64,000 nucleotides of DNA from Seongchinamella unica (GTDB lineage Bacteria > Pseudomonadota > Gammaproteobacteria > Pseudomonadales > Halieaceae), in assembly GCF_004354085.1 (NCBI RefSeq), contig NZ_SMSE01000001.1, positions 1,231,724-1,295,723 of the forward strand. Reading direction: 5' to 3'. Positions 6,057-36,747 of this stretch are shown here, piece by piece. The translations under genes and the position numbers were made by a program. The notes below the pieces were generated by a model, which saw nothing but the letters and a program-made list of their open reading frames with translations, did no database searches and was not told the DNA's origin. Numbering within the stretch: position 1 is the stretch's first letter; each line of letters opens with the position of its first letter.

Positions 6057-7067
6057 CTATAAACTTGTCCAGTGATGGGCAACATCCAGCATCCGGTTGG
6101 CGTACGCCCATTCGTTGTCAAACCATGTCAGCACCTTTACCAGGCGCGAGCCACTGACCCGGGTCTGGCTGGCATCGATGATGCTTGAACGCAGGTCGTG
6201 ATTAAAATCGCAGGATGCCAGAGGCTCCTCAGTATAGCCCAGAACCCCCGCGAACCGGGATTGGGCAGCCTCGAGCAGGGCGCGGTTGACCGCTTCCACA
6301 TCGGTGTCCCGGCAGGTCTGCACCGTCAGGTCCATGGCTGACACGTTCAGCGTCGGAACCCGCAGGGCCTGGGCGCTGAACCTGCCCTTCATTTCCGGCA
6401 GCACCCGCTCCACCCCCCGGGCCAGGCCGGTGTCGACAGGAATGATGGACTGGGACGCCGCCCGGGTCTTGCGTAAATCCGTATGGTGATAGGCATCGAG
6501 GACGGGCTGGTCGTTCATTGCCGAGTGTATGGTGGTGATAGTGCCGCTCTCTATGCCGACCGTATCCGCCAGGGCCCGTATCACCGGCACGATACCATTG
6601 GTGGTACAGGATCCGGCTGAAACCACCCGGTGCGACGGCCGCAGCTGGTCCTGGTTGATGCCATAGACCACGGTCGCATCCACATCGGACTGGGCCGGCT
6701 GGGAAAACAGCACTTTGCCTGCACCGGCGGCCAGGTGCTCCTCGGCGGTGGCCCGGTCGGTAAACGCCCCGGTGCATTCCAGTACGAGGTCAACACCGAG
6801 TTCCGACCAGGGCAAGGTGCTGATGTCGGCGCTGCGCAACAGCGTGATGGACTGCCCACCCACAACCAGTTGCCGCTCATCTCCGTGCAGTTCCCCGGGG
6901 AAACGACCGTGAGTGGAATCATAGCGGGTCAGGTGCAGCACGGTAACGGCGTCGGCCAGTTCGTTGATGGCCACAACCTGCATGTGCGCCTGCAGCGGGC
7001 TCTCCTGCAAGGCCCGCAGCACACTGCGGCCAATCCTGCCGTAACCGTTGATCGCCAGCCGAATCAT
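6057..7067 (-). CDS. epd: erythrose-4-phosphate dehydrogenase (GAPDH family)
   Basis: A 336-aa NAD-dependent dehydrogenase. The N-terminal Rossmann motif INGYGRIGRSVLRAL, the catalytic Cys154 in GSCTTNG and the TTIHSAM histidine are clear. Sequence features (INELADA, YDSTHGRF, GINQDQLR, SQSIIPVDT) match E. coli Epd more closely than GapA. Epd oxidises erythrose 4-phosphate to 4-phosphoerythronate for pyridoxal phosphate synthesis. A GAPDH role cannot be excluded from sequence, since no other gap gene is visible here. The usual second Cys (SCTTNC) is Gly. It sits between tkt and pgk as in enterobacterial and pseudomonad operons. Confidence 0.88.
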   Translation of the reverse strand: MIRLAINGYGRIGRSVLRALQESPLQAHMQVVAINELADAVTVLHLTRYDSTHGRFPGELHGDERQLVVGGQSITLLRSADISTLPWSELGVDLVLECTGAFTDRATAEEHLAAGAGKVLFSQPAQSDVDATVVYGINQDQLRPSHRVVSAGSCTTNGIVPVIRALADTVGIESGTITTIHSAMNDQPVLDAYHHTDLRKTRAASQSIIPVDTGLARGVERVLPEMKGRFSAQALRVPTLNVSAMDLTVQTCRDTDVEAVNRALLEAAQSRFAGVLGYTEEPLASCDFNHDLRSSIIDASQTRVSGSRLVKVLTWFDNEWAYANRMLDVAHHWTSL

Positions 7068-32718: not shown

Positions 32719-33573
32719 TCAGGCGGCGATCGCGGCCTTCAACTTTTTCATCGCATTGGCTTCCAACTGGCGAATTCGCTCAGCGGACACACCATACTGG
32801 TCGGCCAGCTCATGCAGTGTGGCTTTTTCATCTGCCAGCCAACGCTGGGCCAGAATATCGCGGCTGCGCTCGTCGAGGTCCGACAGCGCACTGTGCAACC
32901 GGCTTTCCGAATTTTCCTGCCAGTCACCCTCTTCCACCGCGGTGGCCGGGTCGGAGCTCTGGTCCTCCAGGAAGTACTGGGGGGCCTGCCAGTTGTCCTC
33001 TTCGTCGCCGTCGGTGGGCAGGTCGTAAGCGAGGTCGCGGCTGGCCAGGCGGCCCTCCATACGATGAACCTCCTTCACATCCACACCCAGGTCCTCGGCA
33101 ACTGCCTTGGCTTCGTCGGCGCTGAGCCAGGAAAGACTTTTCTTCTGGCTGCGCAGGTTGAAGAACAGCTTGCGCTGAGCCTTGGTGGTGGCCACTTTCA
33201 CAATACGCCAGTTGCGCAGGATGAACTCGTGCATCTCGGCCTTGATCCAGTGCACGGCAAAAGACACCAGACGTACACCCTTCTCCGGATTGAAGCGTTT
33301 TACCGCCTTCATCAGGCCCACGTTGCCCTCCTGAATGAGGTCGGCTTCCGCCAGGCCATAACCGGAGTAGCTGCGCGCGATATGCACCACAAACCGCAGG
33401 TGGGACATAACCAGTTCCCGGGCCGCGTTGAGGTTGTCGTTGTAGTAGAGATCCTCGGCAAGCTCGCGCTCGCGTTCGGGGCTAAGTACGGGGATGCTGC
33501 CAACGGCCTGGACATAGGCCGCGAGATTAGCTCCCGGTACCATCTGGTCTACAGGTTGCAGGCTGTTACTCAT
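32719..33573 (-). CDS. rpoH: heat-shock sigma factor sigma-32
   Basis: A 284-aa sigma factor. Region 2 ([27 protein letters not shown]), the RpoH box [13 protein letters not shown] and region 4 ([26 protein letters not shown]) are clear. It directs RNA polymerase to chaperone and protease promoters. A perfect CIRCE operator lies 31-57 bp upstream of the ATG, so HrcA probably represses it. It follows ftsX in the classic ftsY-ftsE-ftsX-rpoH order, but with its own promoter region. Confidence 0.98.
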
Positions 33574-33603
33574 ACTCGGTTCTCCATAAATTGGCGGGCA
33601 ATA

Positions 33604-33630
33604 TTAGCACTCTTTGTATTAGAGTGCTAA
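33604..33630. promoter_or_regulatory. perfect CIRCE element (HrcA operator) upstream of rpoH
   Basis: TTAGCACTC-N9-GAGTGCTAA, an exact match to the CIRCE consensus bound by the heat-shock repressor HrcA. On the minus strand a TTAGCA / 18 bp / TAATAT promoter is embedded in the element, so HrcA binding would shut it. The transcript would begin roughly 20-25 bases before the rpoH ATG. Confidence 0.92.
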
Positions 33631-33719
33631 TCACGGAAAAGTTCCCTGTCATTGAAAATTTTTATTAGTCAAATATCAATATAATCAATAGCTTAGCATG
33701 AATAAGCGAAGGGCTTTTG

Positions 33720-34688
33720 TCAGCGGGGCTGGATCGCCGCCAAATGCCGGCTTACCGCCAGCCAGGCGCCCGCCAGCCCGAGCAGGCCGCCCAGTATCAA
33801 CAGGTTGAGAGCCCCCATCAATCCCAGTCCACGAAGGACGAAATCACTCTGGTAGAGCGCGGCCAGATCGGCCACGGGAGCAGACAGGAACCAGAGGGAC
33901 AGGCTGACCAGGAGAGCGGCGGACAGACCGCCGCCCACACCGTACCAAAGCCCGGTGTACAGGAAAGGTCGGCGAACAAAGGGATTACTGCCACCCACCA
34001 GCTTGACGATGACGATCTCTTCCCGCCGGTTTTCAATCGCCAGGCGAATGGTATTGCCCAGAATTAACACCACCCCCAGTACCAGCAGGGCACCAATAGC
34101 CATCACCAGGCGGCGGCTCAACTCCATCAGGCTGTTTAGCCTTTGCAGCCACTCCATGTCCAGCACGGCTTCGGCGACATCGGGGTTTGCGGCCAACTGG
34201 GCGCGCAGGCCTGAAGTGCCGTCTTCATCCGCGGATGGCGCGGGGGTTACCAGCAAGAGGTTGGGCAAGGGGTTGTCCTCCAGGCTGGCCAGGACATCGG
34301 CAAACCCGGAAAGCGCACTGAACTCGGCCAGGGCATCCTCGCGGGAGACGAACAGCACATCGTCCACGTCGTCCCTGGCCCGGATCTGCCCGGCCAGCGC
34401 CCGGGCCTGTTCGCTGCTCACGCCCTCTTCCATAAACAGCGAGATCTGGGACGGACTGTCCCAGCCGGTGCTGAGCTCGGTGACGTTGTCCAGGGCGACA
34501 TCCAGCCCCACCGGCAGCGCCAGGGCAATGCCGATCACCAGCCAGGTCATCAGGCTGGATACCAGGTTGTCCAGCACCCGTTGCAGACTGTCGGCTGCCG
34601 ACAGCCGGTGGTGCCGCAGCCAGGCGTGGTAACGGTCGGAAAAACGGGCACGACTCTGCACCGCCCCTTCGGCCCTCACCCTGTTCAC
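33720..34688 (-). CDS. ftsX: cell division protein FtsX
   Basis: A 322-aa inner-membrane protein with four membrane helices: one near residues 45-65 and three in the C-terminal FtsX domain. A periplasmic loop (about 70-180) is expected to activate a cell-wall amidase through EnvC. GTG start overlapping the ftsE stop (GTGA). Works with the FtsE ATPase at the septum. Confidence 0.95.
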   Translation of the reverse strand: MNRVRAEGAVQSRARFSDRYHAWLRHHRLSAADSLQRVLDNLVSSLMTWLVIGIALALPVGLDVALDNVTELSTGWDSPSQISLFMEEGVSSEQARALAGQIRARDDVDDVLFVSREDALAEFSALSGFADVLASLEDNPLPNLLLVTPAPSADEDGTSGLRAQLAANPDVAEAVLDMEWLQRLNSLMELSRRLVMAIGALLVLGVVLILGNTIRLAIENRREEIVIVKLVGGSNPFVRRPFLYTGLWYGVGGGLSAALLVSLSLWFLSAPVADLAALYQSDFVLRGLGLMGALNLLILGGLLGLAGAWLAVSRHLAAIQPR

Positions 34689-35350
34689 AACCCACCTCCG
34701 GTCACCAGGCGGCCTTCGCGCAGGGTAATGATGCGGTGACGCAACCGGGAGATGAGCGCCAGGTCGTGACTGGCGATCAATACGGTCACACCCACCTGAT
34801 TGAACTCCTCGAACAGCTGCATGATCTCCGCGGAGAGCGCCGGGTCAAGGTTACCCGTGGGTTCGTCAGCCAACAGGATTTTCGGCTTGCCCACCACGGC
34901 CCGGGCGATACCCACCCGCTGCTGTTCGCCACCAGACAGGGTCACCGGCATGGCCCGCTCGCGCTTCAGCAGGCCGACCTTGTCCAGCGCCGCCCGCACC
35001 CGCCGGCCAATTTCCCGGTAGTCGTAGCCGGCAATAATCAGCGGCAGGGCCACATTGTCAAACACCGGTCGATCGAACAGTAATTGATGGTTCTGGAACA
35101 CCACCCCGATGTCACGGCGATGCGCCGGGATACTGCGGTTGGGAACCCGGGCCAGGTCGATACCGTCGACCGAGACCATGCCCCGGGTCGCCCGGTCCAT
35201 CAGCATGATCAGGCGCATCAGGGTGCTTTTGCCGGCACCGGAATGGCCGGTGAGAAACACCAGCTCGTCACGGGCGATGTCAAAGCTGACCTCGCGCAGG
35301 GCATCGTGGCCCTCCGCATAGCGCTTGCTGACCCGTTCAAAGCTGATCAT
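34685..35350 (-). CDS. ftsE: cell division ATP-binding protein FtsE
   Basis: A 221-aa ABC ATPase. Walker A GHSGAGKST, signature LSGGEQQRVGIARA, Walker B ILLADEPTGNLDP and the switch His are all intact. It starts MISFERVSKRY as in the family. Its ATG overlaps the ftsY stop (ATGA). Confidence 0.97.
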   Translation of the reverse strand: MISFERVSKRYAEGHDALREVSFDIARDELVFLTGHSGAGKSTLMRLIMLMDRATRGMVSVDGIDLARVPNRSIPAHRRDIGVVFQNHQLLFDRPVFDNVALPLIIAGYDYREIGRRVRAALDKVGLLKRERAMPVTLSGGEQQRVGIARAVVGKPKILLADEPTGNLDPALSAEIMQLFEEFNQVGVTVLIASHDLALISRLRHRIITLREGRLVTGGGL

Positions 35351-36666
35351 GCAGCAGGATCATCCCCGGCAAACAATGCTTCGATAAATGGCTCCGCTTC
35401 AAAGGGCCGCAAGTCGTCAGCTGACTCGCCGATGCCGATAAAGCGGATCGGCAGTCCGAGCTTGCGGGCGATGGCGAAAATCACGCCTCCCTTGGCGGTA
35501 CCGTCAAGCTTGGTCAGGGTGATGCCGGATACCCCCACCCACTGGCGGAAATGGTCCGCCTGGGCCAGGGCGTTCTGGCCGGTGCCCGCGTCCAGCACCA
35601 GCATGACTTCGTGGGGCGCCGAGTCATCCAGCTTGCCCATTACCCGGACCACCTTTTTCAGCTCTTCCATCAGGTTGTCCTTGTTGTGCAACCTGCCGGC
35701 GGTATCGGCGATCAGTACATCAATCTGCCTGGCCTGGGCAGCCTGCAGCGCATCGAACACCACCGAGGCGCTATCGGCGCCGGTGTGCTGGGCTATCACC
35801 GGAACCTGGTTGCGCTCACCCCACACCTGCAACTGCTCAACCGCCGCGGCCCGGAACGTGTCACCCGCTGCCAGCATCACCGAGTGCCCCTGTGCCTGGA
35901 ACCGCTTTGCCAGTTTGCCGATTGTCGTTGTCTTGCCTACACCGTTAACCCCCACCATCAGCATCACATAGGGTTTGTTAGCACTTACTGACAAGGGCTG
36001 TTCGCAGGGCTTGAGCAGGGCCAGCAATTCTTCTTTCAGGGCTCCCTGCAGGGCCTGGGGGTCGGTCAGTTCCTTGCGCGAGACCCGTTGGGTGAGGTGC
36101 TCGATGATCTCCATCGTCGCTTCTACTCCCACGTCGGCCATCAGCAGGCGGGACTCCAGTTCCTCCAGCAGGTCCGCATCGATTTCCTTGCGGCCCAGAA
36201 ACAGGTTGCCCAATCCCTGGACCAGGTTATCGCTGGTCTTGCCCAGACCACGGCGCAGGCGGCTGAAAAAGCCGGGCTTTTCCCGGGTGGCGGGAGTGAC
36301 TGCCGGGGCTGCCGTTGGCGCTGCCGGTGCCGTCGGCTCAGCGGGCCTGGCCGCCGCTGCTGTCGCCTGTTCGGCCACTGCCGACGGTTCAACAGGTGCC
36401 ACCGCAGTTGGCGCGGATTCCGTTGGTACCGATTCCGTTGCTGCGACTTCCGCCTGCACGGGCAGGGGTTCAGGCACCGGTTCTGGCACGGCTTCTGTGC
36501 TCCTTGACGGGACAGCGGCAGCTGTCGCCGGAGGAGTGGCAGCGCTTCCCGCACTCCCCTCCGGCAGATCTTCTTTTCCCGCCGCCGAATCGGCGCTCAC
36601 CGGTACTGCCGCTTCCTCGGCAGGCGCGGGCGCCTCCGGCTTTTTATTGCGTTTGAAAAATTTCAT
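35347..36666 (-). CDS. ftsY: signal recognition particle receptor FtsY
   Basis: 439 aa. The N-terminal about 130 residues are a low-complexity Ala/Pro/Val/Glu region, the variable A domain. The NG GTPase domain follows, with G1 GVNGVGKTTTIGKL, DTAGRLHNKDNLMEEL and TKLDGTAKGG. It receives ribosome-SRP complexes at the membrane for cotranslational insertion. The ATG at 36666 gives MKFFKRNKK. First gene of the ftsYEX unit, divergent from rsmD. Confidence 0.97.
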   Translation of the reverse strand: MKFFKRNKKPEAPAPAEEAAVPVSADSAAGKEDLPEGSAGSAATPPATAAAVPSRSTEAVPEPVPEPLPVQAEVAATESVPTESAPTAVAPVEPSAVAEQATAAAARPAEPTAPAAPTAAPAVTPATREKPGFFSRLRRGLGKTSDNLVQGLGNLFLGRKEIDADLLEELESRLLMADVGVEATMEIIEHLTQRVSRKELTDPQALQGALKEELLALLKPCEQPLSVSANKPYVMLMVGVNGVGKTTTIGKLAKRFQAQGHSVMLAAGDTFRAAAVEQLQVWGERNQVPVIAQHTGADSASVVFDALQAAQARQIDVLIADTAGRLHNKDNLMEELKKVVRVMGKLDDSAPHEVMLVLDAGTGQNALAQADHFRQWVGVSGITLTKLDGTAKGGVIFAIARKLGLPIRFIGIGESADDLRPFEAEPFIEALFAGDDPAA

Positions 36667-36747
36667 ATTGGTCGTGTTAGAGTCTGCGGTCACCAGAGGG
36701 GCGGCCGCGAAAGGGCCTATCCTACCACTGCTTCACAGAGTGATTAA

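Follow-up and report, generated by a model that had tools for sequence, protein, structure and literature searches.

The CIRCE element located at positions 33604 to 33630 of the Seongchinamella unica window, the stretch of 64,000 nucleotides analysed here, probably functions as an HrcA operator overlying the cores of two superposed rpoH promoters, one of the sigma-70 type and one of the sigma-E type, both of which HrcA would block. The element is a perfect 9-9-9 palindrome (TTAGCACTC-N9-GAGTGCTAA, 0 mismatches) and the sole CIRCE match in the 64-kb window with up to 3 mismatches allowed. It is positioned 30 bp ahead of the start codon of a minus-strand gene (32719 to 33573) that was confirmed as rpoH, encoding sigma-32 (TIGR02392, 400 bits for a cut-off of 323), the presumed controlled gene. 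The initial annotation, which had described a perfect CIRCE just before rpoH, was thus correct on both the element and the adjoining gene. Upstream of rpoH and on the same strand, the gene order is ftsY (35347 to 36693, TIGR00064), ftsE (34685 to 35350, TIGR02673) and ftsX (33720 to 34688, TIGR00439). The nearest named relatives of this rpoH carry the labels Haliea, Halioglobus, Sediminihaliea and Parahaliea.

The element has exact arms, shares its genome with hrcA and occupies a conserved promoter or 5' position of a heat-shock gene, all as expected of a CIRCE. Dinucleotide shuffles of the window produced a CIRCE match in 2 of 100 cases (mean 0.02), and a reversed-sequence control of the rpoH upstream regions from the class sample described below contained CIRCE in 0 of 148. 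Both controls reject a chance palindrome. A peculiarity of the S. unica genome is likewise rejected, as CIRCE recurs before rpoH in near relatives and in the class sample. CIRCE (up to 2 mismatches) was found in 30 of 38 genomes, comprising S. unica and 37 relatives, and in all 30 one copy lies just upstream of rpoH; 25 of these sites were read as sequence (L006 to L030) and 5 were placed by coordinates (G011, G026, G028, G032, G036). The second CIRCE of these near relatives is a groES site in 20 of the 21 cases examined, that of S. unica included, the remaining one not being orientable. Among 80 named loci, 15 carry CIRCE before rpoH, under the labels Haliea, Halioglobus, Sediminihaliea, Parahaliea, Halieaceae, Luminiphilus, Ketobacter and gammaproteobacterium 42_54_T18. 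The 39 Pseudomonas-labelled loci include no such site. E. coli is absent from the hrcA control matches.

We then considered the class as a whole, using a sample of 185 gammaproteobacterial genomes from 166 families, in which searches returned an RpoH match in 169, HrcA in 130 and RpoE over the curated cut-off in 127. One rpoH upstream region was read for each of 148 genomes, which are the RpoH genomes among the matches listed; 21 of the 169, with weaker matches, stand outside the count, and one of them (G144) has both hrcA and an exact CIRCE before rpoH (L312). CIRCE occurs somewhere in the genome, with at most 1 mismatch, in at least 131 of the 185; the class-wide figures given here come from the 148 fetched upstream regions and not from that genome-wide listing. 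With up to 3 mismatches, CIRCE precedes rpoH in 112 of the 148 genomes, and 61 of these 112 sites are exact. Of the 108 genomes with hrcA, 102 have the element at rpoH, as do 10 of the 40 without an hrcA match (Fisher p 5e-17, shared ancestry ignored). CIRCE before rpoH is the usual arrangement among the sampled hrcA-bearing gammaproteobacterial genomes, and the survey of rpoH upstream regions in related genera proposed by the initial annotation thus finds the element kept, both close to S. unica and in the wider class. Six genomes with hrcA lack CIRCE at the counted rpoH (G063, G069, G109, G150, G185, G188); in G069 a second rpoH copy, on contig C325 and left out of the count, has CIRCE 77 bp ahead of it. 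In 12 further genomes of the class, 9 of them of Pseudomonadales, no CIRCE was detected within 450 bp of rpoH (best match with at least 6 mismatches). Outside the class, an RpoH match (E 1e-60) was obtained in 4 of 60 genomes, with CIRCE within 450 bp in 0 of the 4.

The association with hrcA weakens the idea of a CIRCE that has no operator role. It is also an argument against the least probable of the readings that we weighed, which takes the element for a conserved relic, or for a DNA or RNA structure, and has rpoH governed, as in E. coli, at the levels of translation and proteolysis, with no HrcA control. The 10 genomes that keep CIRCE at rpoH among the 40 without an hrcA match fit this reading, which we consider very improbable, and translational and proteolytic control may act in addition to HrcA. 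The predicted rpoH 5' mRNA shows no unusual fold (z -0.39), which also weakens the candidacy of an RNA thermometer, and the rpoH 5' region has no Rfam family above threshold. A known RNA family at this position is similarly weakened, the single sub-threshold match being on the opposite strand. Five of the 10 genomes with CIRCE and no hrcA match are at least 97% complete (G053, G112, G131, G165, G172); they have no PF01628 match, and their hrcA has been lost, is missing or has diverged.

Since HrcA sites are symmetrical, the mirror image of CIRCE was used as the control for asymmetric features around the operator. The initial annotation had noted that CIRCE overlaps a TTAGCA/18/TAATAT promoter. 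These letters are indeed present on the minus strand from 33630 to 33601: the -35-like TTAGCA lies in the left arm (33625 to 33630), and the right arm with its flank forms the extended -10, TGCTAATAT (33601 to 33609). The pair retains 8 of the 12 bases of the sigma-70 consensus (TTGACA, 16-18 bp, TATAAT) plus the TG, and a strict sigma-70 scan of positions 33500 to 33800, requiring at least 9 of 12, returned no promoter. Across the 112 class sites, AAT directly past the right arm creates the extended -10 TGCTAAAAT, preceded at a distance of 18 bp by the left-arm sequence TTAGCA or TTGGCA. The +3 position is T at 100 of 112 class sites, whereas the mirror image shows it in 18 of 112; the third base of the -35-like element is G, towards TTGACA, at 29 of 112, versus a C at the mirror position of the right arm in 2 of 112. 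The +3 T is unlinked to rpoE (85 of 96 genomes with rpoE, 15 of 16 without; p 1). The putative sigma-70-type promoter is weak when taken by itself, and the class-wide conservation of the flank is what argues for it. The overlap described in the initial annotation thus stands as to its letters and conserved flank, less so as to promoter strength, and that description was incomplete: it did not mention GGAACTT at 33639 to 33645 on the minus strand, the -35-like element of a second candidate promoter, of the sigma-E type, that also overlaps CIRCE and recurs throughout the class.

The consensus quoted in PMC7641640 for sigma-E (RpoE/AlgU) promoters is GAACTT, a spacer of 16-17 bp and TCTNN. In S. 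unica both hexamers are exact, with a spacer of 15 versus the 16-17 quoted; on the minus strand, the -10-like element TCTAA (33619 to 33623) combines the last bases of the CIRCE left arm with the opening bases of the loop. In the alignment of the 112 class sites, GGAACTT is most often 9 bp upstream of CIRCE (8 bp in S. unica) and the commonest first loop bases are T-N-A, so that arm end and loop together read TCTAA or similar. Of the 74 class sites that have at least 5 of the 7 GGAACTT bases, 59 have a spacer of 16; in close relatives it is 15. A GAAC core at -18 to -10 was found in 74 of 112 class sites versus 2 of 112 mirror images, and an A at loop position 3 in 82 versus 32 of 112. All three asymmetric features (GAAC, loop-3 A, +3 T) occur together in 58 of the 112 sites. 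Among close relatives, the 25 rpoH sites have GAAC, loop-3 A and +3 T in 25, 24 and 25 cases, and the 20 groES sites in 0, 2 and 0; the groES set consists of 20 relatives' sites and that of S. unica, 20 of the 21 being orientable, and covers close relatives only.

On the sigma-E reading, the GGAACTT block is expected to fade where rpoE is absent, and the comparison agreed. Of the 96 genomes with rpoE, 72 have the sigma-E block, as do 2 of the 16 without (p 2.9e-6, shared ancestry ignored); the GAAC core is present in 73 of 96 versus 1 of 16 and the loop-3 A in 76 of 96 versus 6 of 16, where absence of rpoE means a score below the curated cut-off and three of the 16 genomes have weaker matches (G107, G151, G166), G107 being one of the two that have the block. 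The S. unica genome contains rpoE. A different reading retains repression of rpoH by HrcA and takes the sigma-70-type promoter as the only real one in this lineage, GGAACTT being a fading sigma-E relic. The spacer of 15 instead of 16 is in keeping with it, as is the genome-wide count, in which the sigma-E consensus is not enriched (4 matches with N15 and 1 with N16 at up to 1 mismatch, the backward pattern giving 7 and 17). Three relatives, two Luminiphilus MAGs (metagenome-assembled genomes) and one Halieaceae MAG (L046, L048, L049), keep the rpoH CIRCE and have lost the GGAACTT block. Against this reading, GAAC is retained in all 25 close relatives despite their diverged flanks, with the loop-3 A in all but one, and rpoE is in the genome; we judge it unlikely. 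The asymmetric sigma-E features and their association with rpoE weaken sigma-70 as the sole relevant promoter. The rpoH site is the sole exact N15 sigma-E match in the S. unica genome. On account of the spacer, the lack of enrichment, the 24 of 96 genomes that have rpoE and no sigma-E block, and losses of the Luminiphilus type, we hold the sigma-E part of the S. unica arrangement less firmly than the operator itself.

The distance from the end of ftsX to CIRCE is only 89 bp, and a scan for a terminator between ftsX and rpoH detected none, so that read-through into rpoH is possible. HrcA bound to CIRCE could then act mainly as a roadblock to ftsYEX read-through rather than by promoter occlusion. 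This seems quite improbable to us, given that promoter elements are found at fixed offsets from CIRCE throughout the class sample, an arrangement that favors occlusion of the two promoters.

The sites found in the S. unica genome are consistent with a regulatory hierarchy. The initial annotation had suggested searching for hrcA and for further CIRCE copies at groESL and dnaK. The gene is present (TIGR00331, 334 bits) as the first of hrcA-grpE-dnaK-dnaJ, and the whole genome (4.19 Mb, up to 3 mismatches) has two CIRCE sites, one before rpoH and the other before groES-groEL; the same scan returned none before hrcA, grpE or dnaK, so that the suggestion was borne out at groESL and not at the dnaK operon. 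A perfect sigma-32 promoter (CTTGAAA-N14-CCCCAT) precedes groES, 6 bp past its CIRCE. Sigma-32-type promoters were also found between hrcA and grpE (CTTGAAT-N13-CCCCAT, 1 mismatch) and ahead of dnaK (GTTGAAT-N13-CCCCAT, 2 mismatches), and none was detected before hrcA at the thresholds used (L004, about 6487-6620). The first sigma-32-type promoter of the hrcA-grpE-dnaK-dnaJ operon is therefore the one between hrcA and grpE. Since grpE and dnaK have sigma-32-type promoters and no CIRCE, HrcA would, judging by these sites, act directly on groESL and reach the DnaK system solely through rpoH. The cascade from HrcA over rpoH to the chaperones that had been proposed in the initial annotation is thus backed at the level of sites, by the presence of hrcA, the CIRCE at rpoH and the sigma-32-type promoters of grpE and dnaK. 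In the groES upstream regions of S. unica and its relatives (L001, L271-L290), the sigma-32 promoter starts 6-7 bp past CIRCE in 18 of 20 oriented sites, and a TTGAC-TA[AG]AAT promoter enters the CIRCE left arm in 12 of 21.

HrcA of other bacteria binds CIRCE and depends on GroE. In the circuit that we propose for S. unica, HrcA on CIRCE would cover both promoter cores, namely TT[A/G]GCA with the extended -10 TGCTAAaAT after 18 bp, and GGAACTT with TCNNA after 15-17 bp, the TC forming the last two bases of the CIRCE left arm; both promoters would then be blocked. Unfolded protein would occupy GroEL and leave HrcA without chaperonin support, upon which HrcA would leave the operator. Basal transcription of rpoH by sigma-70 could then resume, and would be stronger with active sigma-E. 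The sigma-32 produced would switch on grpE, dnaK and groESL, the latter itself freed from HrcA, and fresh GroEL would reactivate HrcA and shut rpoH again. Given a need of HrcA for GroE, unfolded protein should thus free groESL and rpoH, and recovered GroE should close both. Chaperonin status would gate both the basal and the envelope-stress transcription of sigma-32, and the overlay predicts that sigma-E does not induce rpoH while HrcA is bound. Such transcriptional negative feedback on sigma-32 is not possible in E. coli, which has no hrcA.

HrcA and sigma-32 are usually seen as alternative or parallel heat-shock controls. The recurrent overlay in many relatives across the class suggests that the two controls are wired in series. 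In regulons of the Bacillus subtilis type, HrcA and CIRCE cover the groESL and dnaK operons. S. unica shares with this type the operator sequence, the repressor family and the groESL target, and differs from it in having CIRCE at a sigma factor gene and none at the dnaK operon. The P3 promoter of E. coli rpoH is a sigma-E promoter, with a GAACTT-type motif shortly before the gene as in S. unica. A similar motif precedes rpoH in Pseudomonas aeruginosa, where, according to the account in PMC7641640, rpoH belongs to the AlgU regulon and its heat induction requires AlgU. In both species an envelope-stress sigma factor drives sigma-32. The Pseudomonas-labelled loci are free of CIRCE, whereas in S. 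unica the operator incorporates the sigma-E-like -10. In 2004, a CIRCE ahead of rpoH was predicted for Geobacter sulfurreducens, treated there as a delta-proteobacterium (PMC545781, Table 8, site at -51). As in S. unica, the arms are exact and groESL belongs to the regulon; unlike in S. unica, hrcA-grpE-dnaK-dnaJ has a CIRCE, and the part of PMC545781 consulted does not describe a promoter overlay at rpoH. In Agrobacterium tumefaciens, as in S. unica, HrcA and RpoH meet at groE (PMC11764788); the title of a 1999 paper cited in that article calls their roles "independent", whereas HrcA of S. unica would also stand above rpoH.

CIRCE before rpoH is therefore already known as a prediction, and the class-wide promoter overlay is what appears to be new: we found no record of it in the open-access literature searched, and part of it may already stand in the beta/gamma survey of Permina and Gelfand (2003) or in regulon databases such as RegPrecise. 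If repression of rpoH by HrcA is common, both systems would be in series in a good part of a large bacterial class; E. coli, whose circuit has no such transcriptional brake, may then represent the derived state. We put at about even the chances of a broader evolutionary scheme, in which the ancestral circuit of HrcA-keeping Gammaproteobacteria was hierarchical, with one operator fused base for base with the housekeeping and sigma-E promoters of rpoH, and chaperonin status acting as an AND-type gate on the envelope-stress induction of sigma-32. After the loss of hrcA, the sigma-E promoter would have persisted in E. coli and Pseudomonas, with translational and proteolytic control taking the place of the brake. 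Finally, the rpoH upstream region of one genome with hrcA (L127, from G218) harbors a CIRCE variant, TTAGCAGTC-N9-GACTGCTAA, with the identical change in both arms, which possibly reflects a shift in HrcA specificity.
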